From: an uncultured Opitutia bacterium
Lineage (GTDB): Bacteria; Verrucomicrobiota; Verrucomicrobiia; Opitutales; Opitutaceae
DNA: 64,000 bases
Reading direction: 5' to 3'
Assembly (NCBI GenBank): GCA_903855985.1
Contig: CAIOAO010000075.1
Coordinates: 1 to 64,000, forward strand
In this document: positions 3,288 to 48,485 of the stretch, one piece after another
How the letters are laid out: every line of letters begins with the position of its first letter
Numbering within the stretch: the first letter of the stretch is position 1
Notes under the pieces: generated by a model
What the model was told of the DNA's origin: nothing
Seen by the model: the letters and a program-made list of their open reading frames with translations, nothing else
Databases searched by the model: none
Program-made: the position numbers and the translations under genes

Positions 3288-4589
3288 GTGCGCACCCTCT
3301 CCATCACCTCCCGGACTTTTACCGAGGACCTGGCCGCCTTCTGCCGCGGCAGCCTCGTCTCCCGCGAACTCTCCGCGGGCGTCGCCGCCATCCTCACCGC
3401 CGTTTATGAACGCGGGGACGAGGCCGTCGGTTATTACGCCGCGAAATTTGACGGCGCCAAGCTGCAGGCCCGCGACTTCCGGGTGAAGCCGGCCGAAATC
3501 ACCGCCGCCGCAAAGCGCCTGCCCGCCGCCGAGCGCAAGGCGCTGGTTGCCGCCCACGAGAGCATCATCGCCTTCAACCGCCGCGGCCTGCCGCAGCCCT
3601 GGACCGCGAAAAACAAGCACGGCGCCACGGTGGGCGAGAAATTCGACCCCATCCGCCGCGTTGGCCTTTACGTGCCCGGCGGCCAGGTCCCGCTGGTCTC
3701 CAGCGTGCTGATGACCGCCACCCTCGCCAAGATCGCCGGCTGCCCGGAGATCGCCGTGTTCACGCCGTCCAATTCCTCCGGCAAGATCGCCGACGGCCTG
3801 CTGGCCGCCCTGCACCTCGTCGGTGTGGAGGAGGTCTACAAGATCGGCGGCGTGCACGCCATCGGCGCCATGGCGTATGGCACGACGACCATCCCCGCGG
3901 TCGACAAGGTCTTTGGCCCCGGCAACGCCTTCGTCTGCGAGGCCAAGCGCCAGGTATTTGGCACCGTCGGCGTGGACTCGCTGCCGGGTCCGAGCGAGCT
4001 GATGGTCATTGCCGACGAGACCGCGCGCGCGGATTTTGCCGCCGCCGACCTGCTCGCCCAAGCCGAGCACGGTTCCGGCCGGGAGAAGGTCTTTCTCGTC
4101 GCCACCTCGACCAAGATCATCGCCGACATCGTCGCCGAGATGGAAAAGCAGCTGCACCTCCTGTCGCGCTCCGAGAAGATGGCGCGCGTGCTCGCCGAGG
4201 GTTTCCTGGCCGTCGAGGTCAAGACCCTCGCGCAGGCCGCCGAGGTCGCGAACTACATCGCCCCCGAGCATCTCGAGCTGCTGGTGAAGGATTCCGCCGC
4301 CAAGGTGCTGACGCGGACCATCACGACCGCGGGCGCGATCATGCTCGGCAACTTTACCCCCACGGCCCTCGGCGACTTCACCGCGGGTCCGAGCCACGTG
4401 CTGCCCACCGGGCGCGCGGGCCGGTTCTTCAGCGGGTTGCGCGTGGCGGACTTCATGCGGCGCACCAGCCTCACGGGCTACAGCCGCGGCAGCGTCCGCA
4501 AGGCCGAGCCCATCGTGGCGGCCTTCGCAACGATGGAGAAACTCGATGCGCACGGGCGGTCGGTGAAGATCCGCACGGTCAAAAAATAA
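3288..4589 (+). CDS. hisD: Histidinol dehydrogenase
   Basis: Catalyses the last two oxidations of histidine synthesis, L-histidinol to L-histidine, with NAD and zinc. The 433-residue sequence has the family blocks GLYVPGG near residue 125, VFGPGNAF near 206, the catalytic AQAEHG (Glu-His pair) near 259-264, and APEHLEL near 325. The start is GTG at 3288, which gives the expected N-terminus; the preceding bases are a pyrimidine tract without Shine-Dalgarno. It is the first gene of the histidine block, 7 bases before hisC. Confidence 0.96.
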   Translation: MRTLSITSRTFTEDLAAFCRGSLVSRELSAGVAAILTAVYERGDEAVGYYAAKFDGAKLQARDFRVKPAEITAAAKRLPAAERKALVAAHESIIAFNRRGLPQPWTAKNKHGATVGEKFDPIRRVGLYVPGGQVPLVSSVLMTATLAKIAGCPEIAVFTPSNSSGKIADGLLAALHLVGVEEVYKIGGVHAIGAMAYGTTTIPAVDKVFGPGNAFVCEAKRQVFGTVGVDSLPGPSELMVIADETARADFAAADLLAQAEHGSGREKVFLVATSTKIIADIVAEMEKQLHLLSRSEKMARVLAEGFLAVEVKTLAQAAEVANYIAPEHLELLVKDSAAKVLTRTITTAGAIMLGNFTPTALGDFTAGPSHVLPTGRAGRFFSGLRVADFMRRTSLTGYSRGSVRKAEPIVAAFATMEKLDAHGRSVKIRTVKK

Positions 4590-4596
4590 GCGCGTC

Positions 4597-5709
4597 ATGC
4601 CGTCCTCCCCGCTGACGCAGCTCGCGCTGCCGCACGTTGCTTCGCTGCACGCTTATACGCCCGGTCTCCAGCCGACGGAACCCGGCTGGGTAAAGCTCAA
4701 CACCAACGAGTGTCCCTATCCGCCCAGCCCGCGCGTCGCCGAGGCTCTGCGCCAGGAAATCGGTGCCGACGGTTCCTCGCTCCGGCTTTATCCCAACCCG
4801 AAGAGCAGCCCGCTGCGCGCCGCCGTCGCTCAACTGCACGGCCTGCGCGAGGAGAACGTCTGCATCGGCAACGGCTCCGACGATATCCTCAACCTCCTGG
4901 TCCGGCTCTTTTGTTCCCCGGCCGCCGCCGCCGGCTTCCTGTTCCCGAGCTACTCGCTCTATCCCGTGCTGGTCGCGATCCAGGACGGCCGCAGCGAGGT
5001 GATCGGGTTCGACCGCTCGATGCGGCTGCCGTTTGAAAAGATCGCGGCCTCGACGGCCAAGGCGTTCTTCCTCACGTCACCGAACGCGCCCACGGGCGTG
5101 GCCTTCACCAACGCCGACCTCGAGCGCATCCTGGCCACGTTCCGCGGCATCCTGGTCGTGGACGAGGCCTACGTGCCCTTCGCGTCGGAGAACGCCGTGC
5201 CGTTGCTCGCGCGGTTCCCGAACCTCGTGATCGTGCGCACGCTGTCCAAGGCCTATGCGCTCGCCGGCATCCGCGTCGGCTACGCCCTGGCGCAGCCCGA
5301 ACTCATCGGCCTGCTCGACCGCGTGCGTGACAGCTACAACGTCAACCGCCTCTCGCAGGCCGCCGCGCTCGCCGCCCTGGGGGATCCGGCCTACTACGAG
5401 GCGCTGATCGCCAAGGTGAAGGCCACACGCGACGCCAACCTGGCGCGGTTCGCCGGCCCGCGCGGCTGGTTCACCTACCCGTCGCAGGCGAATTTCATCT
5501 TCACCGAGCCGAAGAACGCCCGCGGTGAAAGCGGGCCGGCGGTCGCCCAGTCCGCCTATGACTTCCTCTGCCGCCGCAAGGTGCTGGTCCGCCACTTCCC
5601 GAGCCACGCCTTGACCGCCTCGTTCCTCCGCATCACCGTGGGCACCGATGGCGAAATGTCCGCCCTCAACGAATCCCTCGACGCATGGCTAAAAACACCT
5701 CTCGCGTAG
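4597..5709 (+). CDS. hisC: Histidinol-phosphate aminotransferase
   Basis: PLP-dependent class I/II aminotransferase that converts imidazole-acetol phosphate to histidinol phosphate using glutamate. The 370 residues show [12 protein letters not shown] near 34-45, the GNGSDD cofactor contact at 91-96, SPNAPTG at 161-167, VVDEAY with D189, and the Schiff-base lysine K218 in [11 protein letters not shown]. The last 25 bases overlap the start of hisB, so the two are probably translationally coupled. Confidence 0.95.
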
Positions 5710-6287
5710 CGACTGTCACCCGCAAGACGGCCGAGACCGACATCGCGCTCACCCTCGCGGTGGACGGCCGCGGCCTGGGCAAGATCGACACCGGCGTGCC
5801 GTTCTTCGACCACATGCTCACGCTCTTCGCGAAGCACGGCCTGTTCGACCTCACCGTGAAGGCGAAGGGCGACACCGACGTGGATTACCATCACACCGTT
5901 GAGGACGTCGGCCTCGTGCTCGGCCAGGCCTTCAAGGAGGCCCTGGGCGACAAGGTCGGCATCAAGCGCTACGGCTTTTTTCTGCTGCCCATGGATGAGT
6001 CGCTCGCCCGCATCGCCATCGATGTCGGCGGCCGCCCGCACCTGGTCTATTCCGCCGACGCGCCGACGATGTTCGTGCGCGATTTCAACATCATCCTCGT
6101 GAAGGAATTCTGCCGCGCGTTCAGCAACGCGCTCGGGGCGAACCTGCACGTCCAGCTGGTCTACGGCGAGGAGCCGCACCACGTGGCCGAGGCGATCTTC
6201 AAGTGCCTCGCCCGCGCGCTCGACATGGCCACGGCCATCGAGCCCCGCGCCGCCGACCTGCTGCCCTCGACCAAGGGAACGATTTAA
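5685..6287 (+). CDS. hisB: Imidazoleglycerol-phosphate dehydratase
   Basis: Dehydrates IGP to imidazole-acetol phosphate using two manganese ions. The monofunctional 200-residue form has the two metal-binding repeats: [13 protein letters not shown] with [10 protein letters not shown] in the first half, and [10 protein letters not shown] in the second half. It lacks the N-terminal histidinol-phosphate phosphatase domain of enterobacterial HisB, so that activity must be encoded elsewhere. It overlaps hisC by 25 bases. Confidence 0.96.
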
Positions 6288-32658: not shown

Positions 32659-33477
32659 ATGCCCACCCTGACCAATTCCTACCACCTTTCCGCGGACCAG
32701 CAGAAATTCTACCACGAGAACGGCTACCTGCTCGGCCTGCCGCCCATCTACACGCCGGCGGAGATGGCGAAGATCAACGCCGAGCTGCCCAACCTGCTCG
32801 CGCTGCTCAAGCCGGGCGAGTCGTCCAAGGACATCCGCGAATGGCACGAGACGAGCACCTACCTCTACGAGATCGCGATGAACCCGAAGATCCTCGACCT
32901 CGTCGAGGGCATCCTCGGCGCGAATTTCTATTTCTGGGCCAGCAATTTCTTCATCAAGGAGCCGCATAACGCCTCCACCGTCGGCTGGCACCAGGACGCC
33001 TACTACTGGCCGATGGCGCCGCACAATTCCGTCACGGTGTGGCTGGCGTTCGACGACGTCGACGAGGTCAACGGCGGCATGAAGCTGCTCCCCGGCTCGC
33101 ACCGCGGCGGCATCATCAAGCACAAGCGTTCCACGCAGACCTCGTCGGTGCTCACGCTCGAGCTCGAGGACGGCTCGGACTTCAAGGCGGACAACGCCGT
33201 GCAGTTCCGCCTCAAGGCCGGCGAGTGCTCGCTGCACGACGACCGCGCGATCCACGGTTCCCCGGCGAACCCCTCCGACCGCCGCCGCGCGGGCCTGACC
33301 ATCCGCTATTCCGGCACGAACGTGAAGAACGACATGGCGGTGAACCCGAACTTCAAGGTCTACCTCTGCCGCGGTGTGGATGAGTTCAAACTCAACCCCT
33401 ACGGCCCGATCCCGACCACCCGTTACGGCCGCCCGAACTTCAAGCCCGTCAGCAACGAGGAAGCGGGAAAGGGCTGA
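32659..33477 (+). CDS. Phytanoyl-CoA dioxygenase family protein (PhyH-like 3)
   Basis: Fe(II)/2-oxoglutarate oxygenase of 272 residues. Iron triad H111-x-D113 (GWHQDAYYW) and H199 (DRAIHGSPAN); R208-R210 includes the probable 2-oxoglutarate anchor. VNGGMKLLPGSHRGG is the PhyH core turn. ATG 32659 follows a strong pyrimidine tract. It is divergent from the AraC gene and 100 bases before a heparinase-like gene on the same strand. That placement suggests a role in a carbohydrate pathway, which is inference. Substrate unknown. Confidence 0.91.
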   Translation: MPTLTNSYHLSADQQKFYHENGYLLGLPPIYTPAEMAKINAELPNLLALLKPGESSKDIREWHETSTYLYEIAMNPKILDLVEGILGANFYFWASNFFIKEPHNASTVGWHQDAYYWPMAPHNSVTVWLAFDDVDEVNGGMKLLPGSHRGGIIKHKRSTQTSSVLTLELEDGSDFKADNAVQFRLKAGECSLHDDRAIHGSPANPSDRRRAGLTIRYSGTNVKNDMAVNPNFKVYLCRGVDEFKLNPYGPIPTTRYGRPNFKPVSNEEAGKG

Positions 33478-33577
33478 GGCCCTTCTTGCTGGCGCCGGGA
33501 GCGCAGCTGGACTGCGCCCGGGCGACGAAGCCGGGTTTGGATTGCCGCCGCGCCGTGCTGGCCCCGATAGTTTCCCC

Positions 33578-35863
33578 ATGTCCCAGACGCAGCTGTTCGA
33601 GCTCACCCCGGCGGAGTCGATGTTCGCGCCGTTCAACGACCCGATCATCTCGGAGCATTTACCGCTCAAGGTGGTGCCGGGGTCGGCGACGGTGCTGAAG
33701 CGGGACTTCGGCTGGGACGGGGTGAAGGTATCGTGGGACACGGCCAGGCCGGGCACGCTGGCGGTGCAGCTCGAGTTTCCCTTGGCCGGCCTGCCGGAGC
33801 GCTTCGACCAGTTCGTCTTCTGCCATGTGCTGCCACCGGAGGTGAGCCTCACGTTTGAGGCCTGCCGCGGCGGCCAGTGGACTTCGCTCGGCGCGCCCGT
33901 GGTGGGAATCGGCAGTCGGGATGAAGCCACGTTTCCGCTTGGGCACCGCCCGGTGGAAGCGATCCGCTGCGGTTTTACGGCCAGTTCGGGCGGTCATGTC
34001 ATGACGAGCCTGCAATGGTGGGGTGTGGCGCAGTCGAGCCTCGTCGCCGAACTCATCGCCGCGCGTCCGCAGTACGACGGCCAGTGGGCGGGCCTGATCC
34101 TGCCGCCCGCGTCGTGGCCGGCGGTGAAGCTGGCGCGCGGGCTGTTGTTCAACGAGAGCGACCTGCCGGCGCTGCGGGAGAAACGCACGGCGCCGTACTG
34201 GGACAAGCATTGGGCCCTGCTGGAGGAACGCGCGAAGCAGTATCTGGCGCGGCGGCCGGAGGCGGACCTCGATGACTATCTGCCGCAGACGGACCAGCGG
34301 TACATCCGGGCGCGCGAAAAGGGCCGGACGACGTATTTCGCGGAGCCGGTGATTCTGGGTTTTGTCGGACTGGTGAACGGCGACCGCGCGATGGGGTTTC
34401 ACGCGCTGCGCTACCTGATGTGCCTGCTGCATACGACCTCCTGGGCGCAGTCGGCGGAGAGCCGGGTGCGCGGCAGCGTCTGGGACCAGCGCTGCTTCAA
34501 CGAGGAGCAGGCGACCACGGCGGCGGCGCTGCTGCTCGACTGGTATGACTTTGCGCTGACCCCCCGGGCCCGCGTGCTCGCGCAGCAGGTGCTGTGGGAC
34601 AAGGGCGTCAGCGTGATCGAGCGCGACATGATGAAGTGGGACTACGTCTTCACCATGAACCAGGGCCCGTGGTTCTGCCGCGCGCGGCTGCTGGCGGGAC
34701 TCTACCTGGAGACCGTCTGGCCGCGGATGAAACCGCACACGGAACTCGCGCTGGCGGACATGCGCGCCGGCATGGAAAACTACCTGCTCCCCGACGGCGG
34801 CACGGATGAGGGGCTGGGGTATTTTTCCATCACGCTGCACGCCGTGCTGCCGGGTTTCCTCGCCTATGCGCGGGCGCGCAACGTGGATGTGCGGACGCTG
34901 CTGCCGGCGGCCTTTGCGCAGACGGGCGGCTTCGTGGCGGCGCTGTCGGCAATGGAGCCGGGGCGGGTTCTGACGGAAGGCGACAACACCATCGACCTCG
35001 TCGTGGGCGACACGATCCCGATGCTGGCGGCGATTTTCCCGGGCGAAGTTTATTCCCGCGTGGTGGCGGCCTGCCTGATGCAGCGCCGGCCGGCGGGGTA
35101 TTATGACCAGTATTTCTTTGAGGGCGTGTTCTCCTTCATCGCCGGCCCGGGAAAACTGGCCCCGCCGGAGGCGATCGTGCCAAACTTCGCACGGCTGGCG
35201 CACACCGGCCACCTGACGAGCCTCCGCCGGACGCCCGCGGGGCGCTCAGTGCGGCTGCACCTGGTCGGGGCGAAGGCGAAGGCCTCGCACACCCACTTCG
35301 ACAAGGGGGCGTTCCTGCTCGAACTCGACCGGACGCCGGTGCTGCTCGACCGCGGACAGGTGCGGTACGACGACCTGCGGTCCTACACCCTCAAGCGCAC
35401 GGAGCTGCACAACACGCTTTCGCCGGTGACGGCGGACGGGGTTTACTTCAACCAGGCCGGCGTGATCGAGGCGACGATCCCGGCGGGCCAGGGCGATGAG
35501 CGGCGGCTGCAGGCGCAGATCGACCTCGCGCACGTCTGGCGCGGGGTCATGGCCCGCTGCACGCGCGAGATCACGGCCGATACGGTCGAGGAATTTACCG
35601 TCTGCGACCGTGGCGAACTGCTCACGCCGACCACGCTCGCCTTCCACCTGCATACGCGCGGTCCGTGGGAGATCCGCGGCCGGGAAGCGGTGCTGAAACT
35701 GCCCGGGTGGGAGCTGACCCTGCGGGCACCGTGGGCCGACACGATTACCCAGCGCGAGGACTCGATCGATTTCCGCCTGCAGCCGGTCTGGCACCTCGAG
35801 TGCCGGCTGAACCAGGCCAAGGCGTTCGACCTGCAGACGACCTTCACCTGCCGGCCGGTTTGA
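33578..35863 (+). CDS. Heparinase II/III-like protein, no signal peptide
   Basis: Protein of 761 residues. Residues 1 to about 180 form an N-terminal beta domain; an (alpha/alpha) toroid follows (LLFNESDLPALREKR near 190; WDQRCFNEEQATTAAAL near 305; DGGTDEGLGYFS near 406). The heparinase II/III C-terminal beta-sandwich has SHTHFDKGAFLLELDRTPVLLDRG near 571-594. Family members cleave uronate-containing polysaccharides by beta-elimination. No export signal is visible from ATG 33578, so it may act on imported oligosaccharides; the exact substrate is not readable. Confidence 0.87.
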   Translation: MSQTQLFELTPAESMFAPFNDPIISEHLPLKVVPGSATVLKRDFGWDGVKVSWDTARPGTLAVQLEFPLAGLPERFDQFVFCHVLPPEVSLTFEACRGGQWTSLGAPVVGIGSRDEATFPLGHRPVEAIRCGFTASSGGHVMTSLQWWGVAQSSLVAELIAARPQYDGQWAGLILPPASWPAVKLARGLLFNESDLPALREKRTAPYWDKHWALLEERAKQYLARRPEADLDDYLPQTDQRYIRAREKGRTTYFAEPVILGFVGLVNGDRAMGFHALRYLMCLLHTTSWAQSAESRVRGSVWDQRCFNEEQATTAAALLLDWYDFALTPRARVLAQQVLWDKGVSVIERDMMKWDYVFTMNQGPWFCRARLLAGLYLETVWPRMKPHTELALADMRAGMENYLLPDGGTDEGLGYFSITLHAVLPGFLAYARARNVDVRTLLPAAFAQTGGFVAALSAMEPGRVLTEGDNTIDLVVGDTIPMLAAIFPGEVYSRVVAACLMQRRPAGYYDQYFFEGVFSFIAGPGKLAPPEAIVPNFARLAHTGHLTSLRRTPAGRSVRLHLVGAKAKASHTHFDKGAFLLELDRTPVLLDRGQVRYDDLRSYTLKRTELHNTLSPVTADGVYFNQAGVIEATIPAGQGDERRLQAQIDLAHVWRGVMARCTREITADTVEEFTVCDRGELLTPTTLAFHLHTRGPWEIRGREAVLKLPGWELTLRAPWADTITQREDSIDFRLQPVWHLECRLNQAKAFDLQTTFTCRPV

Positions 35864-35951: not shown

Positions 35952-36518
35952 ATGCGCCGACTCCTCTGCCTTGTCCTGATCGTCACGGGGTTTCTGCCCC
36001 GCCTGTCCGCGGCCGAACCGGACGCCCATCTCCTCGCCGGTACCTGGCGTTACGACCCCGCCCGCAGCACCGAGCTCAGCTCCTGGGGCGCGCTGCAGCT
36101 CGTCATAACCGTGGACGGCCCCCGCGTCACCCTCGTGCGCCATTGGACGGCGGGCCGGCGGACGTTTGATGAGGTCATGCCGCTCAATCTCACCCAAGCG
36201 GTCAACGCCGTGCCGGTGGAGTGGTGGCCCGACAACCGCCACCTCGGAGCGTACATCGGCGGCGACAAGACCAAGCGGATCCACGCCACCCTGATGGACG
36301 GCGGCCGCATGCTGCGGCTGAGCTCCGACCTCGTGCTCGCCACGCAGCAGGGCGAGCGCGCAGTGAACATCCTCAGCGATTACAAGGTGTCGGCCAACGG
36401 CGCCCAGCTCACCCTCATCGAGCTGCGCAGCACGCGCAACGACCCCGTCGTGTATGTCTTCCACCGCGTGACCGATGCCGCCACCGACGCGAAGGTCGCG
36501 AAGGGCAACGCCGAATGA
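35952..36518 (+). CDS. Small exported beta-rich protein, module copy A
   Basis: Protein of 188 residues with a Sec signal peptide (MRRLLCLVLIVTGFLPRLSAA, residues 1-21). The mature part resembles a lipocalin-like beta barrel: LLAGTWRYDPARST near 27-40, a central YIGGD, DGGRMLRLSS, QQGERAVNI and LIELRSTRNDPVVYVFHRV. A clear paralog lies at 39502-40035. Its stop overlaps the GxGYxYP gene start by 4 bases (ATGA), so the two proteins are made together. Function unknown; a periplasmic or outer-membrane partner of the GxGYxYP protein is the natural guess. Confidence 0.85.
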   Translation: MRRLLCLVLIVTGFLPRLSAAEPDAHLLAGTWRYDPARSTELSSWGALQLVITVDGPRVTLVRHWTAGRRTFDEVMPLNLTQAVNAVPVEWWPDNRHLGAYIGGDKTKRIHATLMDGGRMLRLSSDLVLATQQGERAVNILSDYKVSANGAQLTLIELRSTRNDPVVYVFHRVTDAATDAKVAKGNAE

Positions 36519-38203
36519 ACCCATTCACCCCTCCCATGCGCGCCGACCGATTCCTTGCCCTCGCCCTCCTTCTCACCGGCTTGTTGCTGCCTTCCATCGC
36601 CCGCGCCCAGCCCATCCCGCCGAAGGTCGCCCACGCCCCGGCCACGGCGACGATCATCCCGCTCTCGGACAACTGGCGGATGGACGGGGACGTCCCGGTG
36701 CACGCGCTGCTGATCTCGCTGCAGGGCCTCGCGAATCGCGGCCATCCCTGCCTCTACCTCGAGTACCCGAAGGACTGGCAGTGGGAAATTGCGCGTCCGC
36801 TGGAGGGATTCCTGGAAAAACGCCATGGCGTGAAATTTGACCGGCTGGCGCAGGACGATGCCGATGCGGCGCTCACGCGGTTTTCGAAGTGCACCAAGGG
36901 CTACGTCGTATGGGACCGAAAGGTCCGCTCCTCGCTCATCGTGGCCTTCACGATCGCGGGTGTGGAGGACGCGCTGGTCGTCAGCGAGGAGCTCATCCCG
37001 CTCGCGGAAAAACACGGCCTGAAGCCGCTCGCCGACCTGCGCGGGCGGTTTAGCGGCCAGTCCGAGGCGGAGATCTACCAGTGGGCTTACGATCACTACT
37101 GGGCGCGGTGCTCCCGGGACTATTACGTGCTGCTCGGCGGCCATGCGGGCGTTGAGATGCAGCCGGGCATTGCGGACTTCGGCGTCATGGAACGGGCGTT
37201 TTTCAGCGACCTGTCGGCGAACCCGAAGCATCCCGCGGAACTTGCGCTCGAGCGCAAAATCCTCGGCGGGCAGAACCCGCACAGCATCGTCGTCGGCTGG
37301 CATTCCTACGGCAAGGACACCGAGGGCCAGCACACCACGCTCGTGGGCAACTACGGCCTGAAGATGGAGGGCCTGCACAACCTGCCGAACGTCTCCTTCA
37401 CCAGCCAGATTCCGCTGACGGCTGATTTCAAGTTCACCAACAACCACCACGTCGCCCCGGACGCGAAGTTGCACGCGGAGAAGAAGGTCTACGTCTGCGC
37501 GGTGGCGACCGACTCGATGGGCATCGGCGCGTGGACCAAGCCCGGCCGCGGCCAGATCCCGTACACCTGGCAGGTGACGATGAACTGGGCCTGGATGAAC
37601 GCGCCCGCCCTGCAGTATTTCTATGAGGACCGCACGCCGAACGACTACTTCATCGCGGGTCTCGGCGGGCCGGGCTACATGTACCCGAAGTCGATTCCCG
37701 CGGACAAATTCCCGGCCCTGATGAAGGACGCGCGCTCGCTCATGAGCCAGCTCGACCTGCGCGTGATGGAGCTGATGGACTACTCCGAGGGCAACCGGCA
37801 CGTCGGCAACACCGACCTGCCGAAGGAGGTCGTGGACCGCTATTACCACGAGTTTCCCGATGCGATCGGCTTCATCAACGGCTACGGCACCGCACGCACC
37901 TACGACCTGCGCGACGGCAAGCCGCTGATCAGCTACGACTATTACCTCGATGTGAACCGCACGGTGAAGGACGCCGCGGCGGACCTGGAGGAGCTCATCC
38001 AGCTCAATCCCGCGCGCCCGTATTTCCTGCTCCTGCACATCCGGGAGCGCAACCCGATCGAGAAGGTGGCGGCCATCTTCCACTCCCTCAGCGAGCCGGT
38101 CGAGGTGGTGCCCCTCGATGTTTTCCTGAAGCTCGCGGCCGACGCAAAAACCTATCCGACGCACTACCAGACGCCCGGCGACCCGGTGAGCCGGAACCCG
38201 TGA
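36515..38203 (+). CDS. GxGYxYP family exported protein, copy A
   Basis: Protein of 562 residues with a signal peptide (hydrophobic LALALLLTGLLLPSIARA ends near 31). The family signature GPGYMYP is at 385-391. Other blocks: LLISLQGLANRGHPCLYLEYP, GYVVWDRKVRSS, VVGWHSYGKDTEGQHTT, TNNHHVAPD and MGIGAWTKPGRGQIPYTW. The family is proposed to contain glycoside hydrolases, but I know of no settled activity. An alternative start is ATG 36536. It overlaps the small exported gene and has a paralog at 40053. Confidence 0.9.
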   Translation: MNPFTPPMRADRFLALALLLTGLLLPSIARAQPIPPKVAHAPATATIIPLSDNWRMDGDVPVHALLISLQGLANRGHPCLYLEYPKDWQWEIARPLEGFLEKRHGVKFDRLAQDDADAALTRFSKCTKGYVVWDRKVRSSLIVAFTIAGVEDALVVSEELIPLAEKHGLKPLADLRGRFSGQSEAEIYQWAYDHYWARCSRDYYVLLGGHAGVEMQPGIADFGVMERAFFSDLSANPKHPAELALERKILGGQNPHSIVVGWHSYGKDTEGQHTTLVGNYGLKMEGLHNLPNVSFTSQIPLTADFKFTNNHHVAPDAKLHAEKKVYVCAVATDSMGIGAWTKPGRGQIPYTWQVTMNWAWMNAPALQYFYEDRTPNDYFIAGLGGPGYMYPKSIPADKFPALMKDARSLMSQLDLRVMELMDYSEGNRHVGNTDLPKEVVDRYYHEFPDAIGFINGYGTARTYDLRDGKPLISYDYYLDVNRTVKDAAADLEELIQLNPARPYFLLLHIRERNPIEKVAAIFHSLSEPVEVVPLDVFLKLAADAKTYPTHYQTPGDPVSRNP

Positions 38204-38257
38204 GCAGGGTCACGACTTCCGCCTCGCGCTTCCTCGCCATCGCCTGATGCTGAATCC

Positions 38258-38908
38258 ATGGCCGCGGTTGACACCTACACGCCGGGAGAGGAGCTGGCGA
38301 ACTGCGTCACGCATGGCATCGGCATCGTGCTGAGCCTGGCGGGGCTGGTGCTGCTGACGACGTTCTCCAGCCTGCACGGCGATGCGTGGCTGATCACGGG
38401 TACCACGATCTTCGGCGTCACGCTCGTCGCGCTCTACACGGCGTCCACGCTCTACCACAGCTTCCGCTCCGTCGCGGTGAAGCACGTGCTGCGCAAGTTC
38501 GACCACGCGGCGATTTTCCTGCTGATCGCGGGCTCCTACACCCCCTTCCTGCTCGTCACGCTCCGCGGTCCGTGGGGCTGGACCCTGTTTGGCGTGATCT
38601 GGGGACTGGCGGTCGCGGGGATTGCGCTGAAGTTCTGGTTTGCCGGCCGGTTTAAGGTGGGCTCGACGCTCGTCTATATCGCGATGGGCTGGCTGGTCCT
38701 GACGGTGCTGCGCCCGCTGCTGGTGCTGTTGCCGCGCGAAGGCTTCTGGCTGCTGCTGGCGGGCGGCTTTTGCTACACGGGTGGGGCGGTTTTCTACCTC
38801 TGGAAACGCCTGCCGTATCACCACGCCGTGTGGCACCTCTGGGTGCTGGCGGGCAGCGCCTGCCACTGGGCGGCGGTGTTTTTCTACGTGGTGCCGGTCA
38901 GGGGTTGA
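38258..38908 (+). CDS. trhA: Hemolysin III / TrhA family membrane protein
   Basis: Protein of 216 residues with seven hydrophobic segments, of the PAQR-like hemolysin III family. The metal-binding pattern is visible: GEELANCVTHGIG at the start, YTASTLYHS near 64-72 and KFDHAAIFLLIAGSYTPF near 86-103, with a final HAVWHLWVLAGSACHW. Members influence membrane energetics or lipid homeostasis. It lies between the two GxGYxYP modules and converges on the TspO gene, overlapping its end by 11 bases. Confidence 0.93.
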   Translation: MAAVDTYTPGEELANCVTHGIGIVLSLAGLVLLTTFSSLHGDAWLITGTTIFGVTLVALYTASTLYHSFRSVAVKHVLRKFDHAAIFLLIAGSYTPFLLVTLRGPWGWTLFGVIWGLAVAGIALKFWFAGRFKVGSTLVYIAMGWLVLTVLRPLLVLLPREGFWLLLAGGFCYTGGAVFYLWKRLPYHHAVWHLWVLAGSACHWAAVFFYVVPVRG

Positions 38909-39368
38909 GGCGCCAGATGGCGGCGTTCAGCACGGTCGCGAAACTCACCCACGCCACGTAGGGTGCCCACAGCCAGCCTGCGACCCGGTCGAGCCGGGCA
39001 AAACGCAACTGGATCAGGACCAGCGTGCCCCAGAACAGCACGACTTCGAGCAACGCCAGGCCGGGGCGGTGCAGCCCGAAGAACAGCACGGACCACAGCG
39101 CATTCAGGGCGAGGCTCACGAAGAACAGCCGCAGGGCGGGGCGGGCGCCCGTCTGTTCGCGGCGCAGCCAGACGCGCCACGCGGCAATGCTCATCAGCAG
39201 GTAGAGGAGGGTCCACACGGGGCCAAAGATGGCGGCCGGGGGATTCCACGACGGTTTGACGAGCGTGGGATACCAGGTGCGGACCGATTCAAACGTCGCG
39301 TATCCGCCGATCGCGGAGGCGGTGAAGGCGGCGAGCAGGAACAGGCCCAAGGCGATCCAGCGGTTCAT
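38898..39368 (-). CDS. tspO: TspO/MBR family protein
   Basis: Five-helix membrane protein of 156 residues, related to the tryptophan-rich sensory protein and the mitochondrial benzodiazepine receptor, which bind tetrapyrroles. Signature blocks are WYPTLVKPSWNPPAAIFGPVWTLLYLLM, ALNALWSVLFFG and WAPYVAWVSFATVLNAAIWRLN. The end overlaps trhA by 11 bases in a convergent arrangement. The start is 133 bases from the module B small gene, divergent. Confidence 0.93.
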   Translation of the reverse strand: MNRWIALGLFLLAAFTASAIGGYATFESVRTWYPTLVKPSWNPPAAIFGPVWTLLYLLMSIAAWRVWLRREQTGARPALRLFFVSLALNALWSVLFFGLHRPGLALLEVVLFWGTLVLIQLRFARLDRVAGWLWAPYVAWVSFATVLNAAIWRLNP

Positions 39369-39501
39369 CCGTCAAGGGAATCCACTTTCCTTCCGGGCGC
39401 AAGTGGGGCCCGGGGTGATAATTCATGGGAAGATTTTCTGCGCGGCTTGTCTTGCGGTCAAAAGCGCCAAGGTTGGGCGCAGCCATCACTGGTTTCCTTC
39501 C

Positions 39502-40035
39502 ATGAAATTCCGCCACCTGTTCCTTGCCTGCCTCGGCCTCGTGCTGGGTTCCGGCCTTTCCCTCCGCGCCGACGCGGTATCCGCCCAGTTTGCCGGCACG
39601 TGGACGCTTGACGTTGCCCGCAGCACGCCGATCCGCCCGTGGGACAAGGAGTCCCTCACCATCACGGTGACCGGCGACACCACGGTCCTGACCCGCAACC
39701 TCGCCTGGGGCGCCGACCGCAAGGCCGGCGACACCACCACGGTGAAGACCGACGGCAAGACCGTCACGCCCGGCCCCGTGGGCTACTGGCTCGATACCTG
39801 GTACACCAATGTCTACATCGGCGGTGACCACCAGAAGCACGTCACGGGCGAGTGGCTCGACGGCGGCCGCGTGCTGAAGCTGGAGACCAACCTCTTCATC
39901 GAGGCGCAGCAGGGCGACCATGCGGTCCACATCTACGACGAGTACCGCCTCTCGGCGGACGGGAAGACGCTGAAACTCTACGAGCTCCGCTCCACCCGCG
40001 ACGAAGCCCTGGTCTACATCTTCACCCGCGCCTGA
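39502..40035 (+). CDS. Small exported beta-rich protein, module copy B
   Basis: Protein of 177 residues, paralog of the protein at 35952-36518. It has a signal peptide (residues 1-24, ending SLRADA). Shared blocks: AGTWTLDVARST, VYIGGDHQKH, DGGRVLKLETNLF, QQGDHAVHIYDEYRLSADG and YELRSTRDEALVYIFTRA. It carries about ten extra residues in the middle compared with copy A (GDTTTVKTDGKTVTPG). ATG 39502 follows TTTCCTTCC. It is 17 bases from the GxGYxYP gene copy B. Confidence 0.86.
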   Translation: MKFRHLFLACLGLVLGSGLSLRADAVSAQFAGTWTLDVARSTPIRPWDKESLTITVTGDTTVLTRNLAWGADRKAGDTTTVKTDGKTVTPGPVGYWLDTWYTNVYIGGDHQKHVTGEWLDGGRVLKLETNLFIEAQQGDHAVHIYDEYRLSADGKTLKLYELRSTRDEALVYIFTRA

Positions 40036-40052
40036 ACCCGCCCGCCCCCGCC

Positions 40053-41735
40053 ATGAAAAACACTTTCAAGCTCCTCGCCCTCTTCACGCTTGCCGCCGCG
40101 ATGCTCGCGCCGGCCCTCCGCGCCGTGCCCGGCGTGAGCGGCCCCGCGCCGAAGACCGCCTTTCTCATCCCGGTGAAGGACAACTGGGAGATCAATCCCG
40201 CCAAGCCCGGCGCGCCCGCCGCCCTTGCGGAAAACCTGCTGCTCATCGCGCTGCAGGGTCTCGCCAACACCGACGCCCCGCGCGTGTACATCGAGTACCC
40301 CGAGACCTGGCATTTTCATGACTTCAACCCGCTGAAGGATTTTTACGCCACGAAGTACGGCGTGAAGTTCACCCGGCTCGACACGGTGGACGCGGCGCTC
40401 AAGGAGCTGGCGCCCTTTGCGAAGGGATATGTGGTCTGGGACAAGCACGTCCGTGCCTCGATCAACGTCGCCCTCACCGCCGCCGGCGTACTGCGCGCGG
40501 TCGTGGTCAACGAGGATCTCATCCCGCTCGCCGAGAAGCACGGGCTGAAGCCGCTGGCGGACTTCCGCGGACAGTTCACCGGCCAGACCGACCTCCAGAT
40601 CTACCGCTGGGCCTACGACAAATATTGGAAGGACTGCAGCCGCGACTACATCATCTGGATGGGCGGCGTGGCGGGCAACAGCATGGAGCCCGGCGTGGCG
40701 GACCTCGCGATCGCCTTCGGCGCGTTCGTCACCGATCTCTCGGCCAACCCGAAGGACAAGGAGGAACTCGCCTTTCACAAGGAGCTGCTCGCCCAGCTCA
40801 AGCCGACGGCGTGGATCATGGGCTGGCACTCGTATGCGAAGGACACGGAGGGCCAGTGGATCACGCTGACGTCCGGCTTCGGCCTCAAGGCGATCGGCCT
40901 GAACACCTTCCCCAACGGCACCTTCATGAGCCAGATCGGCTTCTCGCCGGGCTTCAAGCTGACCAACAACAACCACGTCACGCGCGACAGCGTGGTGACC
41001 GCGGAGAAGAAATTCTACGTGTGCCTCGTGCAGTCCGACAGCATGGGCATCGGCGCCTGGACCGAGCCCGAACGCGGCTCGATTCCCTACAACTGGGAGG
41101 TCGGCGTGGACGGCGCCAAGTGGTATCCGGCGGCGATGGAGATGTTCACCAAGGACAAGACCCCGAACGACTACTTCATCGGCGGCCAGTCGGGCTACAT
41201 GTACCCGGCCGCGGTGCCGGCGGACCGTTTCCCGGGCCTGATGCAGGAGATGAACGCACTGATGCCGCTGATGGACCAGCACACGGTCGGCATCATGGAC
41301 CACACCGACCGCGGCATCCCGATCGGCTATTTTGATCTGCCGAAACACGTGGTGGATGAGTATTACGCCGGCGCCCCCGGCGTAATCGGTTTCATCAACG
41401 GCTACGCCGCCGCGCACACCTTCGACGTCCGCAACGGCCAGGCAATGATGTCGTACGATTACTACCTCGACGAGCACCGGCCCGTGGCCAGCGCCATCGC
41501 CGACCTCGACGAGCTGGCCCGGCTGAATCCGGTGCGGCCGTACTACATGCTCATCCACGTGCGCGAATCGAACAGCCTCAAGCGCGTGATCAGCATCATG
41601 AACGGCCTCGAGGAAAAGCCGGAGATCGTGCCTCTCGACACCTTCCTGAAGCTCGCCGCGAGCAACCCGACCTTCAAGGTGCGCTACAAGGACGTGAAGC
41701 CCGCCGGCAAGGCGTGGGATTCGCAGACGCAGTGA
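40053..41735 (+). CDS. GxGYxYP family exported protein, copy B
   Basis: Protein of 560 residues with signal peptide (MKNTFKLLALFTLAAAMLAP, cleaved near 26). It is collinear with copy A: LIALQGLANTDAPRVYIEYPETW, GYVVWDKHVRAS, MGWHSYAKDTEGQW, TNNNHVTRD, MGIGAWTEPERGSIPYNW, FINGYAAAHTFD. The signature is altered: after NDYFIGG comes QSGYMYP (379-385), two residues shorter than in copy A and without the first glycine of GxGYxYP. It ends 7 bases before a perfect hairpin shared with the convergent M20 gene. Confidence 0.9.
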   Translation: MKNTFKLLALFTLAAAMLAPALRAVPGVSGPAPKTAFLIPVKDNWEINPAKPGAPAALAENLLLIALQGLANTDAPRVYIEYPETWHFHDFNPLKDFYATKYGVKFTRLDTVDAALKELAPFAKGYVVWDKHVRASINVALTAAGVLRAVVVNEDLIPLAEKHGLKPLADFRGQFTGQTDLQIYRWAYDKYWKDCSRDYIIWMGGVAGNSMEPGVADLAIAFGAFVTDLSANPKDKEELAFHKELLAQLKPTAWIMGWHSYAKDTEGQWITLTSGFGLKAIGLNTFPNGTFMSQIGFSPGFKLTNNNHVTRDSVVTAEKKFYVCLVQSDSMGIGAWTEPERGSIPYNWEVGVDGAKWYPAAMEMFTKDKTPNDYFIGGQSGYMYPAAVPADRFPGLMQEMNALMPLMDQHTVGIMDHTDRGIPIGYFDLPKHVVDEYYAGAPGVIGFINGYAAAHTFDVRNGQAMMSYDYYLDEHRPVASAIADLDELARLNPVRPYYMLIHVRESNSLKRVISIMNGLEEKPEIVPLDTFLKLAASNPTFKVRYKDVKPAGKAWDSQTQ

Positions 41736-43529: not shown

Positions 43530-45653
43530 TTAAACGTAGGCGACGCGCCTGGCCTTCGGCCTGACGCCGGATTTCGACCAGTCGTAGGGCACGAAGCCGA
43601 GCTTCAGGGCGGGGGAGTTTTTCGCGAGCCGCCAGGTCTTTTTGCCCTCGGTGAGCTTTGGGTCGGCGACGATCGAGAGCTGGTCGTGTCCGGCCTTTTT
43701 CCACGCGGTAAAGCTGAGCTTGTGCGGGTTGCCCTCCTTGAGGTGGGTCTCGGGGTTGAGGCTCGGCGCGAGCGGGCCGTCCGGGAACCAGAGGCAGTTC
43801 GCGTTGGCGACGAGGGCGCCGGCGGCGATGTTGCCCTTGTAGCCGCCCTTGTAGAGCGACGCGCTGGGGCCGAGCAGGATGTTGGTGCAGAAACTGGCGC
43901 TGAAATGGCCGGGTTCGATGCGCGAGACGGAGCAGAGGGCGTTTTTGCCGCGCGCGAAGATGTTGTTCCGGACGATGTTCTCGTGGCCGTAGTGGATGTT
44001 GAACGGCGCATCCTTGGTGTCGTGGACGAGATTGTGCTCCACGAGGATGTACGAGCTGCCCTCGTCGAGGTACACGCCCCAGCCGCCGTAGTCGTGCGAG
44101 TAGATGTCGTGCAGGTGGTTGCCGCGCAGGACGGTGCCGGGCTGGATGCCGAGCGTGTAGATGCCACCCATGTCGCTCAGGATGCCGGCACCGATGTGGT
44201 GGATGTGGTTGTGCTCGATCCGGTTGTTGCAGCTGATCGTGTCGCGGAAACCCCACGTCCAGCCGACAGAAATCCCGGTGTAGCAGGTGTCGTGGATGTG
44301 GTTGTGCGCCACGACGCAGTCGGCGGCGTTGCCCAGCAGCACGCCGATGCCTTGGTGAAAGATGCGGCCGATGTGGTGGACGTGGTTGTCGGTGATGCGG
44401 AGGTTGCCGGTGCGGCGCTCGGCCAGGTTGTCGAGGTCCGCGCCGTGCGCGCGGATGCCGCCGGCGCCGAGGTCATGCAGCTCGTTGCCGACCGCGGAGC
44501 AGTCGCGGCAGCCCGGGCCGAACTCAACCCCGTAGAAGCCCGCGCGCTCGACGGTGCAGTCGGTCACCGCGCAGTTGCGCGCGGCCCGGAAAACGACGGC
44601 GCCCGGCACCGCGATGGCGGCCTGCGGGCTGCCGCCGATCGGCTGGTCGAGGCCCTCGATCATGGCGTGGGTGGGGATGTGCGTCTCGGCCACCGGCGAA
44701 TACCAGTCGGCGTGGCGGAATGTGAGCCCGGAAAATTCCAGGCCGCGCACGTGGCGCGTGCCATGCACGTCAATGCGGTCGCCGGTCTCGGCGTACAGGA
44801 GCCCGCTGGCCCGCACAAAAGTATGCAGGCGCGGCGCGAAAATGGCGGTGTTGGCGGGCGTCTCGCCGGGGCGGGGCAGATAATAAAGCCGGCCGGTCTC
44901 GCGGCTCAGGTACCACTCGCCGGGCTCGGTGAGCGCCTCGAAGAGGTTGTCGATGTAGTAGCGGGCATAGTCGCGGCCGCCGGCGGAATTGACGTACGCC
45001 TCATAGAGGCAGAACGCGGAGCGGCGCGCGAAGGTCAGCCAGCCGGTCCGCGGGTTCAGCGCGGGCTTCGGCAGGCGTTCCTCGATCCAGTAGTGCAGGA
45101 GCACGTACTCGGCGTCCGGGAGCGACGCCCACGCGGGCGAGACGTCGCCGGGCTTGGGCTTGAAGGTGTCGCGCCCGTCGAAGAGCCCGGTCTTCTCCGG
45201 CTCGAGGATTTCGCCGATGTGCAGGACGTTTTTGACGCCGGCGGCGTCGGGCGAGAACTTGGGCAGGCGGGCGCGGGGCGCGCGGCGGCCGTTGACGAAG
45301 AGCGAGCGGAAGTAGCGCTTGCCGGCCATGACGTCGGGCAGGTCAAGGGTCCACTCGGTCCGGCCGTTGCGTGTGCCCACCTTCCAGCCGGTGAGCTGCT
45401 CGGCGCCGTCGAACACCGGCGAAGCGCCGGGCGCGGCGGCGAAGCGCGTGTGCGAGTCGGTGTGGTCAAAGTGGACGGTCTCAGCCTGCTCGTAGCGGCC
45501 GGCGTGCACCTGGACGGTGACGGGGTCGGTCAGCTTGCCGGCGGCGCGGAGCTGGCGCAGGTTATTGCGGGCGCCGGCCAGCGTGGCCCAGGGGCGGGTG
45601 ACGGTGCCGGGAGCCGAGTCGCGTCCACGGGGTGAGAGATGGAAGACGTGCAT
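43530..45653 (-). CDS. Right-handed parallel beta-helix protein
   Basis: Protein of 707 residues without signal peptide. The N-terminal part opens with FHLSPRGRDSAPGTVTRPWATL, typical of DUF1565/pectate-lyase-like helices. Residues about 330-560 hold many helix turns (EHNHIHHIG, HNHIHDTCYTGISVGWTW, RGNHLHDIYSHDYGGWGVYLDEG, EHNLVHDTKDAPF). The GISVGWTWG turn and the acidic YLDEG resemble carbohydrate-active beta-helices such as GH141, but that assignment is tentative. It probably acts on a polysaccharide. Start ATG 45653 follows CTCTCTCATCCC. Confidence 0.88.
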   Translation of the reverse strand: MHVFHLSPRGRDSAPGTVTRPWATLAGARNNLRQLRAAGKLTDPVTVQVHAGRYEQAETVHFDHTDSHTRFAAAPGASPVFDGAEQLTGWKVGTRNGRTEWTLDLPDVMAGKRYFRSLFVNGRRAPRARLPKFSPDAAGVKNVLHIGEILEPEKTGLFDGRDTFKPKPGDVSPAWASLPDAEYVLLHYWIEERLPKPALNPRTGWLTFARRSAFCLYEAYVNSAGGRDYARYYIDNLFEALTEPGEWYLSRETGRLYYLPRPGETPANTAIFAPRLHTFVRASGLLYAETGDRIDVHGTRHVRGLEFSGLTFRHADWYSPVAETHIPTHAMIEGLDQPIGGSPQAAIAVPGAVVFRAARNCAVTDCTVERAGFYGVEFGPGCRDCSAVGNELHDLGAGGIRAHGADLDNLAERRTGNLRITDNHVHHIGRIFHQGIGVLLGNAADCVVAHNHIHDTCYTGISVGWTWGFRDTISCNNRIEHNHIHHIGAGILSDMGGIYTLGIQPGTVLRGNHLHDIYSHDYGGWGVYLDEGSSYILVEHNLVHDTKDAPFNIHYGHENIVRNNIFARGKNALCSVSRIEPGHFSASFCTNILLGPSASLYKGGYKGNIAAGALVANANCLWFPDGPLAPSLNPETHLKEGNPHKLSFTAWKKAGHDQLSIVADPKLTEGKKTWRLAKNSPALKLGFVPYDWSKSGVRPKARRVAYV

Positions 45654-45764
45654 GGGATGAGAGAGCGGTAAGCGTTAAGCTTTAAGCGGGGAAGCTCGAG
45701 AGAACGAGTGCGAGCCAAGCGCGGCCGCCCCGCCTTGCGAAGGTAAATCGGGCCCGCCGGTTGA

Positions 45765-46427
45765 TTATTTCAGGGCGCGGACCGCCGCGAAAAACGCGGC
45801 GAGCTTGGTTTCGTCGAGCACGTCATTCGTGCGGACGCTGCTGCAGAGGTCGAAGCCGTGCGGCCCGACCTGCACGTGGGCGGCGGCGAGGTTATCGGGG
45901 CGCAGCCCGCCGGCGAGGAAGACGGGCCGGCCGCACGTTTCGACGATCCGGCGCGACACCGCCCAGTTGTGCGTGCGGCCGGTGCCACCGAGTTCCTTCA
46001 CGGCGAGGCTGGGGTTGCCGGAGTCGAGCTGGATGAAATCAACGTCCGGCGCGGCGGCGGCGGCTTCGGCGACGGATTCCTCGCCGCGCACGTGGATGAC
46101 CTGGACGAGCTTGATCCCGGGCAGTGCGCGGCGGAGGTCGCGATGCGTGCCGCGGGTGAGGGCGTCCACGAGCTGGATCGTCGTCGTCCGGCAGCGGCGG
46201 TGCTGGGCGATGATGGCGTCGGTGTCGGTGAGTGCGGTGAGGAGAAACATGGCCACGGCCGGTGGCACGGTGGGGGCGATCTCGGCGATGAGGTTTTCCC
46301 CGATCATGCCCGGGCCGCTCGGCATGGAGGAAACGAGCCCGAGGGCGGAGGCGCCGTGCGCGATGGCGCTGCGCGCCTCGGCGACAGACTTGATGCAGCA
46401 GATTTTGACGACGGGTAGGGAGGCCAT
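45765..46427 (-). CDS. TrpF-like (phosphoribosylanthranilate isomerase family) protein
   Basis: TIM barrel of 220 residues. The catalytic pair of the family is present: C10 in VKICCIKS, equal to Cys of KICGI, and D134 in FIQLDSGN, the catalytic Asp. The phosphate-binding end is partly kept (LAGGLRPDNLAAA, FDLCSSVRT). However, Gly after the catalytic Cys is Cys11, and the SxR loop after strand 2 is SMPSGPGM without its substrate-binding Arg. It lies among polysaccharide genes, not tryptophan genes. It may be a true TrpF or a paralog with another phosphorylated sugar substrate. Confidence 0.8.
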   Translation of the reverse strand: MASLPVVKICCIKSVAEARSAIAHGASALGLVSSMPSGPGMIGENLIAEIAPTVPPAVAMFLLTALTDTDAIIAQHRRCRTTTIQLVDALTRGTHRDLRRALPGIKLVQVIHVRGEESVAEAAAAAPDVDFIQLDSGNPSLAVKELGGTGRTHNWAVSRRIVETCGRPVFLAGGLRPDNLAAAHVQVGPHGFDLCSSVRTNDVLDETKLAAFFAAVRALK

Positions 46428-46457
46428 GCCACGAAGTCGCGTCCGCCGGGGCCGGGT

Positions 46458-48485
46458 TCAGAGCACGATGACCGGGGCGCCCTTGCCCGCGGCAATGAGT
46501 CGCACCACCACGTTCTGCCCGCGATGCGTGCCCGTGATATCCCAGGCGCCCTCAGCGGTGGTCACGTGGAGATTGCCATGCCCCTCACCCTCGGGCGCGG
46601 CGGTGCAGACGGTGAGCAGCGAGTGCTCGAGCGCCGCGGCGGAGCGGATTTCGGCAAAAGGATAGACCCCGCCGCTTTCGGGCAGCGCGAGTTTGCCGGT
46701 GGCCAGCGTGCTGGGGGTGGCGGTGACGACCCGGGCGCGCAACGTGGCGTGGGGGCGGGTAATCGTGAAAATCGCGCCTTCGACGGAGACCTGGCCGGCG
46801 CCATCCTCGTTGAACACTTGGAAGCGGGCCGACACGGGCAGCGGGTCGGTCAGGAAGATGCGGTCAAAAATCACGAGCACGTCGGGCTTCACGTAAACCA
46901 GCGTGCGCTGCACCAGCTTCGCCGGCAGGCCGGCGCGGTGGTAGGCATCGGCCGCGTCACTGGTGACGGCCATCCAGTTGAGCCCGGTGCGGTAGTCCTG
47001 GATCGCGGCGTCGGCGGTCGAGGAATTCACCCCGTCGCGGCCGTCGTGGTAGATATGGCCCTGGCCGTTGATCAGCACGGCGGTGTGGGCCTCGGTCTGG
47101 CGGAGGAGCCATTTCGGCTCCTTCGTCGAGTAATTGGCGTGCAGCGGATCATTGAAGAGCCGCTCGCCGTGGGCCTTGAAAATGACGCTGTTGCGGTCGG
47201 CATGCTCGTGATTGACCGGGCGGCCGCTGCGGAGGGTCACGACGGTGTCCTGCTCTTCCCAGCCGGTGCGGGAGATGATGATCCCCAAGTCGGTCTGGCG
47301 GTCGAGCCGGGCGGTCGCCGGCAGTTTGGCGGGCACGGCTGGGTCATACCAGATGGCAGCCAGGCAGCTCAGCCAGCTGGCGCGGACCGCGCCCGGCTGG
47401 AGCGCAAGGTATTGGGCGCCGGTATCGCGGAACTCGCGGGCGATCCACATCAGGGGCACGGCCCCGGCGGCGGTGGCGGCATCGCCGATGCTGATGCAGT
47501 CGTCGGGATGGCCGGCGGTCGGCATGCTCATCTCGAGGGCGTAGCGGCCCTGCGCGGGAAAATCCACCAGCGCGCGCTCATCCACGCCGAGTTTCCGCCG
47601 CAGGAGTTCAAGGGCCAGGGTGTAGTGGGTGAACGTGTAGTCCCAGTAGCCGATGCCCTCGGGGAATGAGCCGTCCTTGGGCAGGCGGGACGCGTAAAGC
47701 TGCAGGCTGCTGCGGGTCATCTCGAGCCACTTGGGCGCGTCCGGGTGGCGGCCCCACAGGTGACAGGTCGCGGCGGCGAGGCCGGCGGTGCAGGTGATGC
47801 GGAGGTTGGTGTCGTCGAGGATGCGGGGCCAGTGGTCCACTGCCATGGGCGGCAGGCCCTCCTCGCCGGGCTCGAGGCTCCACGGACCGACCTCGGTGTG
47901 GTGGGTCATGTCGTGCAGCCCGCGGTATTGGGCCGGGGCGCCTTCGGTGCCCATGCGCTCGGTGATGGCGGCCTGTTCCGCGGGGCTCAGGTCGGCCGCG
48001 AGCCATTCGGCGGCGAGGGCGAGGGCGATGCAGGTGCCGCCGCCGCGCATGACGCCAACCGGGCGCTGCTGGCTGTCACGCAGCCAGTCCCAGCGCGGAT
48101 AGCCCAGGATTTTGGCGAGGGCCGTGCGCGCCAGGGCGAGATGCCGGGCATCGGGAAACAGGAGATGCACGAACGCCGAGCGCTGCATGATGACCTGGGC
48201 GCGGGACATATCCACGACGTGGTTCGCGAAATGCAGCTCGTGGTTCAGGAATTTTTCCTCCGCGGCGAAATCCACCTGGGTCATGAACGTCCAGAACGCA
48301 CGGAATTCCGGGCGCTGCACGTTGGCGCGGAGGCGGGGCAGGTCGGCGGCGTCGAAGAGCAGGCCGCGGGGCGCGGTGACGGAGGTCGGCGCGATCAGGT
48401 CGGCGGCGCGGCCGGTGCCACGCAGGGCAAGGAGGGCGCCCAGGCCGAGACTGGTGCGGAGGAACTGGCGGCGGGGGATGGGCAT
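46458..48485 (-). CDS. Tat-exported heparinase II/III-like protein
   Basis: Protein of 675 residues. The N-terminus RRQFLRTSLGLGALLAL (5-21) is a twin-arginine signal. An (alpha/alpha) toroid domain covers about 40-390 (LLFDAADLPRLRANVQRPEFRAFW, DGSFPEGIGYWDYT near 271-284). The C-terminal beta-sandwich has RSGRPVNHEHADRNSV at 419-433, where the histidines and Asp are the usual catalytic/metal set. Likely a periplasmic polysaccharide lyase. Five near-perfect AGAAGGA heptamers lie 13 bases in front of the ATG. Confidence 0.89.
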   Translation of the reverse strand: MPIPRRQFLRTSLGLGALLALRGTGRAADLIAPTSVTAPRGLLFDAADLPRLRANVQRPEFRAFWTFMTQVDFAAEEKFLNHELHFANHVVDMSRAQVIMQRSAFVHLLFPDARHLALARTALAKILGYPRWDWLRDSQQRPVGVMRGGGTCIALALAAEWLAADLSPAEQAAITERMGTEGAPAQYRGLHDMTHHTEVGPWSLEPGEEGLPPMAVDHWPRILDDTNLRITCTAGLAAATCHLWGRHPDAPKWLEMTRSSLQLYASRLPKDGSFPEGIGYWDYTFTHYTLALELLRRKLGVDERALVDFPAQGRYALEMSMPTAGHPDDCISIGDAATAAGAVPLMWIAREFRDTGAQYLALQPGAVRASWLSCLAAIWYDPAVPAKLPATARLDRQTDLGIIISRTGWEEQDTVVTLRSGRPVNHEHADRNSVIFKAHGERLFNDPLHANYSTKEPKWLLRQTEAHTAVLINGQGHIYHDGRDGVNSSTADAAIQDYRTGLNWMAVTSDAADAYHRAGLPAKLVQRTLVYVKPDVLVIFDRIFLTDPLPVSARFQVFNEDGAGQVSVEGAIFTITRPHATLRARVVTATPSTLATGKLALPESGGVYPFAEIRSAAALEHSLLTVCTAAPEGEGHGNLHVTTAEGAWDITGTHRGQNVVVRLIAAGKGAPVIVL

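Follow-up and report, generated by a model that had tools for sequence, protein, structure and literature searches.

The window, a stretch of 64,000 nucleotides (nt) from an uncultured Opitutia bacterium of the family Opitutaceae (contig CAIOAO010000075.1, positions 1 to 64,000), carries two copies, A and B, of a module in which a gene for a small exported protein precedes a gene for a GxGYxYP protein. The pairing of this small protein, a predicted β-barrel, with one clade of GxGYxYP proteins is strongly supported, and the family splits in two by two traits, the partner and a sequence motif. Judging from the sequences and structure models, the pair most likely forms an exported protein of two parts that acts on or binds glycans, and in which the barrel serves to hold the substrate. 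We put at about 70% the probability that each module specifies one such protein, in which the barrel docks on the GxGYxYP part, is needed for its function, and holds or presents a glycan substrate at its cleft.

A small exported protein paired with GxGYxYP proteins

Module A consists of genes for a 188-residue small protein (35952..36518, + strand) and for a GxGYxYP protein of 562 residues (36515..38203, + strand), which share a 4-nt overlap, while the small (177 residues; 39502..40035, + strand) and large genes (560 residues; 40053..41735, + strand) of module B are 17 nt apart. The small proteins are 40% identical between the copies over 172 positions (E 2e-38) and the large ones 51% over 526 positions, and the duplicated two-gene module of a preliminary description of this DNA is confirmed in coordinates, order and strand. 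All four GxGYxYP Pfam models (PF16216, PF20957, PF20958 and PF14323) match both large proteins above the curated cut-off, and all four module proteins have signal-peptide-like N-termini, judged by eye without a predictor. The name-giving motif reads GPGYMYP in copy A and QSGYMYP in copy B; a 2-residue deletion before GYMYP in copy B and its nearest relatives takes out the first Gly. The genome has a third pair, on its contig C106 (small gene 3965-4498, large gene 4503-6131), so that all three of its GxGYxYP genes, the only PF14323 matches detected in it, are paired.

The pairing extends through the family. In a survey of 150 Opitutaceae genomes, 68 have PF14323 matches and 58 small-partner matches; 120 of the 141 PF14323 matches have a partner, 106 as a separate small gene located upstream in the same orientation and 14 within one open frame, and 120 of the 123 small-partner matches are linked to GxGYxYP. 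The remaining 21 PF14323 matches, all of which were fetched, comprise four fusions recognized by a wider profile, five partnered-type fragments at contig ends and 12 divergent partnerless matches (11 proteins). The three unlinked small genes all lie at contig ends; two of them continue into an incomplete GxGYxYP gene, and the third is broken off by the contig end. A further 78 named loci were found with a profile of the large proteins of this genome, with the best 80 of 199 kept, which biases them to relatives; 90 of their 95 GxGYxYP open reading frames (ORFs) have a partner (74 separate, 16 fused), and each of the other five has less than 200 nt upstream. Depositor labels of the fused loci include Ignavibacteria, Aminicenantes, Calditrichota, KSB1, Bacteroidetes and one Opitutaceae. 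Locus L076 is labeled Actinomycetota, but its fused protein and that of the Calditrichota locus L067 share 95% identity; the label is probably a binning error.

Fusions dominate in two other phyla. In the phylum of G150, the genome of locus L087 labeled Bacteroidetes, 247 genomes yield 14 matches, namely 13 that were examined (eight N-terminal fusions, one C-terminal fusion and four partnerless proteins) and a contig-start fragment (G150:C388). In that of G155, the genome of locus L081 labeled KSB1, 82 genomes yield 93 matches, with 14 separate pairs, 49 N-terminal fusions (one below the Pfam cut-off and another with only the barrel end, both at contig ends), 10 C-terminal fusions, one of them partial, and 20 matches without a partner; 19 of these 20 were examined and comprise three partnered-type fragments at contig ends and 16 proteins of the partnerless kind. 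The C-terminal barrel fusions, i.e., L146:1477-4653 and the ten in the G155 phylum, reverse the usual order. The same phylum has 22 unlinked small matches, six strong and 16 weak; every strong one is at a contig end, and four are fusions with an incomplete GxGYxYP part, whereas the 12 weak ones that were fetched (17-41 bits) all stand alone. Among 288 Verrucomicrobiota genomes, a set that overlaps partly with the 150-genome survey, the matches outside the window's family are one N-terminal fusion and 24 partnerless ones, and 20 of these 24 were examined. Every examined partnered-type gene with readable flanking DNA thus has a dedicated partner, as a same-strand upstream gene or as an N- or C-terminal fusion.

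The two genes are closely coupled. Taking the first in-frame start as the start of the large gene, it lies at most 50 nt from the stop codon of the small gene in 69 of 73 separate pairs, and the genes overlap in 27 of the 73, often by 4 nt. Distances among small proteins correlate with those among their own large partners (r 0.79 for 88 pairs; 0.83 for separate pairs only), and when partners are swapped within 13 multi-pair loci, none of 2000 trials reaches the observed correlation; the pairs have therefore been copied and inherited as pairs, each partner following its own mate. In nine N-terminal fusions the barrel match ends within three residues of the start of the GxGYxYP match, which leaves almost no linker. 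With the genes closely coupled, or the barrel fused to one end or the other, both parts would be made in equal amounts, as suits a one-to-one complex.

Signal-like N-termini on each of the two proteins in unfused forms (by eye) would also suit two proteins that act on the same periplasmic compound without touching, their linkage reflecting co-regulation only. This is highly improbable in view of the fusions in both orders with almost no linker, the pair-specific co-evolution and the lack of any strongly matching small gene without a partner where the contig continues, and we infer that the two parts are in contact in the unfused form as well. A lipobox-like Cys, noted by eye in some small partners (L042 and L067), would anchor the pair to a membrane in these cases.

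Two kinds of GxGYxYP protein

The partnered proteins form a distinct branch. In a FastTree tree of 121 proteins, all 106 partnered ones fall in one clade (support 1.0) that contains no partnerless member; the N-terminal fusions form one clade of 24 within it (support 0.90), and the single C-terminal fusion in the tree branches at the base. The motifs [ST]D[SGCA][MIL]G[IL]G, which reads TDSMGIG in copy A and SDSMGIG in copy B, and KDxE are common to all 95 GxGYxYP ORFs of the named loci. A matching motif is also present in 17 of another 20 partnered-type ORFs; the remaining three are fragments, two of which begin downstream of the motif and one inside it.

The proposed active site differs between the two kinds. 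When the three proteins of this genome are aligned to BT2193 (PDB code 3sgg; residue numbers are chain index + 21, from the construct in PMC4071793), they match it at Glu272 and Asp331 and have a gap opposite Asp333-Asn334. The equivalents of Glu272 and Asp331 (Glu266 and Asp329 in copy B) are present in 95 of 95 partnered proteins, and Asp333-Asn334 are gone from the shared motif in all 95, so that the acidic triad Glu272/Asp331/Asp333 of the proposed glycoside hydrolase class is incomplete. None of the 51 partnerless proteins examined has the partnered motif. An Asp occupies the Asp333 position in all 15 of the first set, and a clear [D/E]-x-D motif is found in 16 of 16 from the G155 phylum and in 13 of 20 from Verrucomicrobiota; the pattern could not place the motif in the other seven. 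On sequence grounds, the proposed catalytic Asp333 is in doubt for the partnered clade.

The small-partner profile has no match (E up to 0.05) in the same 51 proteins (15 + 36), their own frames and the surrounding DNA that was fetched, although in L143 and L167 the contig starts at the open frame and an upstream gene could not be seen. A partner that is obligate for the whole GxGYxYP family is thereby rejected; the dedication of the small protein to GxGYxYP proteins, as supposed for the window, holds throughout one clade and far beyond the window, but not outside that clade.

The incomplete triad lends itself to a different view, that of a binding or sensing complex composed of a pseudo-hydrolase (the large protein) and a ligand-holding barrel. 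It would also accord with the lack of activity reported for GxGYxYP proteins of mannan loci (a personal communication in PMC4071793), whose membership in the partnered clade is not established. All 95 partnered proteins, however, retain counterparts of Glu272 and Asp331, and the catalytic triad is itself a prediction; we regard a pure binding complex as unlikely, albeit not negligibly so. A partnered clade that has its own barrel partner and lacks a residue thought to be catalytic implies that the two proteins most likely work as one unit. The split by partner and motif is a ground for assaying the activity of this one GxGYxYP branch only with both parts present.

Predicted structure and proposed role of the barrel

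Searches with the small proteins of copies A and B against Pfam and NCBIfam (E up to 1), and with that of copy B against PDB sequences (E up to 5), returned no match, and a Pfam scan of 87 members of the small-partner family gave one marginal match (E 0.0013) in a single member. The small partners thus represent an exported barrel family without a Pfam entry, found here in several phyla. The model of the copy B protein (predicted local distance difference test, pLDDT, 92.4) is a ten-strand up-and-down β-barrel, and the fold of copy A is taken from this paralogue. Its best structural matches are FABP-like barrels with Z about 14, the top one being a luciferase of that fold; Z is 14.1 over 117 residues for FABP5 (4azp). 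These matches (FABP, NanoLuc, SAHS and mite allergen) are tied and show the fold only.

The natural fusion L067 was modeled as a single chain (pLDDT 94.4; predicted template modeling score, pTM, 0.89). Its residues 24-178 match FABP-like barrels (Z 13-15), and residues 180-680 superpose on 3sgg with Z 36.0 and a root-mean-square deviation of 2.6 for 457 aligned residues; the 3sgg fold is shown on this fusion homolog, and the large proteins of the window match 3sgg by sequence. The pTM of 0.89 in a two-part chain suggests defined packing. The large part would comprise an α/β repeat domain and a seven-stranded barrel with a cleft between them, and the small barrel would dock on it, be required for its function, and hold or present the substrate, presumably a glycan or glycoconjugate, at the cleft.

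Nine positions of the small protein are invariant or nearly so. They include a Gly (invariant) and a Trp (near-invariant) on the first strand, and Ser41, Gln137, Gly138, Ser164 and Arg166, which lie in or beside loops at one barrel end according to the meander topology. Mean conservation is 2.44 bits at that loop end vs 2.08 in the strands and 2.26 in the loops of the other end, where the chain termini leave the barrel. This pattern gives modest support for a functional face at the conserved-loop end. The barrel may go further and cap the GxGYxYP cleft such that its conserved loop residues (Ser41, Gln137-Gly138 and Ser164-Thr165-Arg166 in copy B) rebuild the active site, giving a split-center two-protein enzyme with a mechanism unlike that proposed for the partnerless proteins, which we consider rather unlikely.

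A helper role has also to be weighed. The small gene is usually upstream, hence translated first, and is closely coupled to the large gene, and the small partner at L019:5040-5921, upstream of its own GxGYxYP gene, has an FKBP-type prolyl isomerase domain (PF00254, 103 bits) at its C-terminus. Both features would befit a steric chaperone dedicated to folding or export of the GxGYxYP clade and without a part in mature function. In the fused proteins, however, the barrel belongs to the same chain, at one end or the other; of the nine nearly invariant residues, five map to the loops at one end of the barrel or next to them and resemble a binding face, and the FKBP domain is seen in one case only. 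A chaperone is distinctly unlikely on this evidence, and a substrate-holding subunit remains the preferred role of the barrel.

Genomic context and relation to known systems

The surroundings of the window pairs agree with sugar metabolism. Directly upstream of copy A is a heparinase II/III-like gene (33374..35863, + strand; PF07940, 30.6 bits), which serves as context only. Downstream of module B, on the - strand, lie a β-helix gene whose product has a GH141-type insertion domain (43530-45653), another heparinase II/III-like gene (46458-48485) and a PRA-isomerase-like gene (within 43530-48485), and two PhyH-like genes and one xylose-isomerase-like gene are also near. The two pairs, previously taken to be adjacent, have the same order and strand but are not immediate neighbors, as an HlyIII gene (38258-38908, + strand) and a TspO gene (38898-39368, - strand) intervene, and the third pair is on contig C106.

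Several observations weigh against the reading of each module as one exported two-part protein with a glycan substrate. The third pair sits between FtsJ-like and SpoU-like methyltransferase genes, i.e., in a housekeeping setting and not among sugar genes. The context of the named loci is likewise mixed: flanks were called for 64 of the 78 (14 near-duplicate or short ones were excluded, and some have no ORF), 328 of 329 predicted ORFs were scanned, and 12 of the 328 are heparinase II/III-like, a raw count without a background rate. Other matches include at least 12 sodium:solute symporters, at least 8 SpoU and at least 5 FtsJ methyltransferases, lower bounds taken from the 25 commonest families per batch. 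The loss of Asp333-Asn334 may mean that the partnered protein is not an enzyme, the profile surveys cannot detect a very divergent partner in the partnerless group, and the fusions represent few events on the tree (Fitch count 2, with only one C-terminal fusion included) and not many independent observations. A carbohydrate locus as proof of function is weakened by the methyltransferase neighbors and the setting of the third pair; the carbohydrate-processing role initially put forward stays a hypothesis, given the missing Asp333 of the clade and the methyltransferase setting of the third pair.

GxGYxYP proteins were described in 2014 as a predicted glycosidase class, with no glycosidase activity reported for them (Rigden et al. 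2014, PMC4071793), and CBM6, CBM32, ricin lectin, laminin G, PA14 and phytase domains are named there. The text of that paper from abstract to Discussion, a scope that excludes figures and supplements, makes no mention of a partner, and the words lipocalin, fatty acid, small protein, operon, partner and upstream are absent from its main text. A literature search on GxGYxYP and on calycin or FABP-like proteins with glycan themes, with most subscription papers and all bioRxiv preprints outside its scope, likewise returned no description of the partner.

Weak profile matches (17-41 bits) and a similar length link the small partner to the stand-alone exported proteins L206-L217, mostly of 160-180 residues, of which those inspected start with a G-x-[WY] motif. 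Unlike the small partner, they are without a GxGYxYP match in the surrounding 3-6 kb that were fetched; a Pfam scan of ten of them gave nothing above cut-off, and their sequences suggest that they belong to a wider superfamily of exported barrel proteins. With FABPs and other calycins (FABP3-5, NanoLuc and SAHS), the small partner shares the ten-strand meander barrel (Z about 13-15), the invariant Gly and the near-invariant Trp of the first strand. It differs in being bacterial and exported, with 10-20% identity in the listed matches, and in lacking the two-helix lid according to the secondary structure of the model; the likeness is one of predicted fold only. The large proteins of the window carry the same four Pfam domains as BT2193, on which the large part of L067 superposes, and the partnered proteins keep its Glu272 and Asp331 equivalents; they differ from BT2193 in lacking Asp333-Asn334 and in having a dedicated barrel partner.

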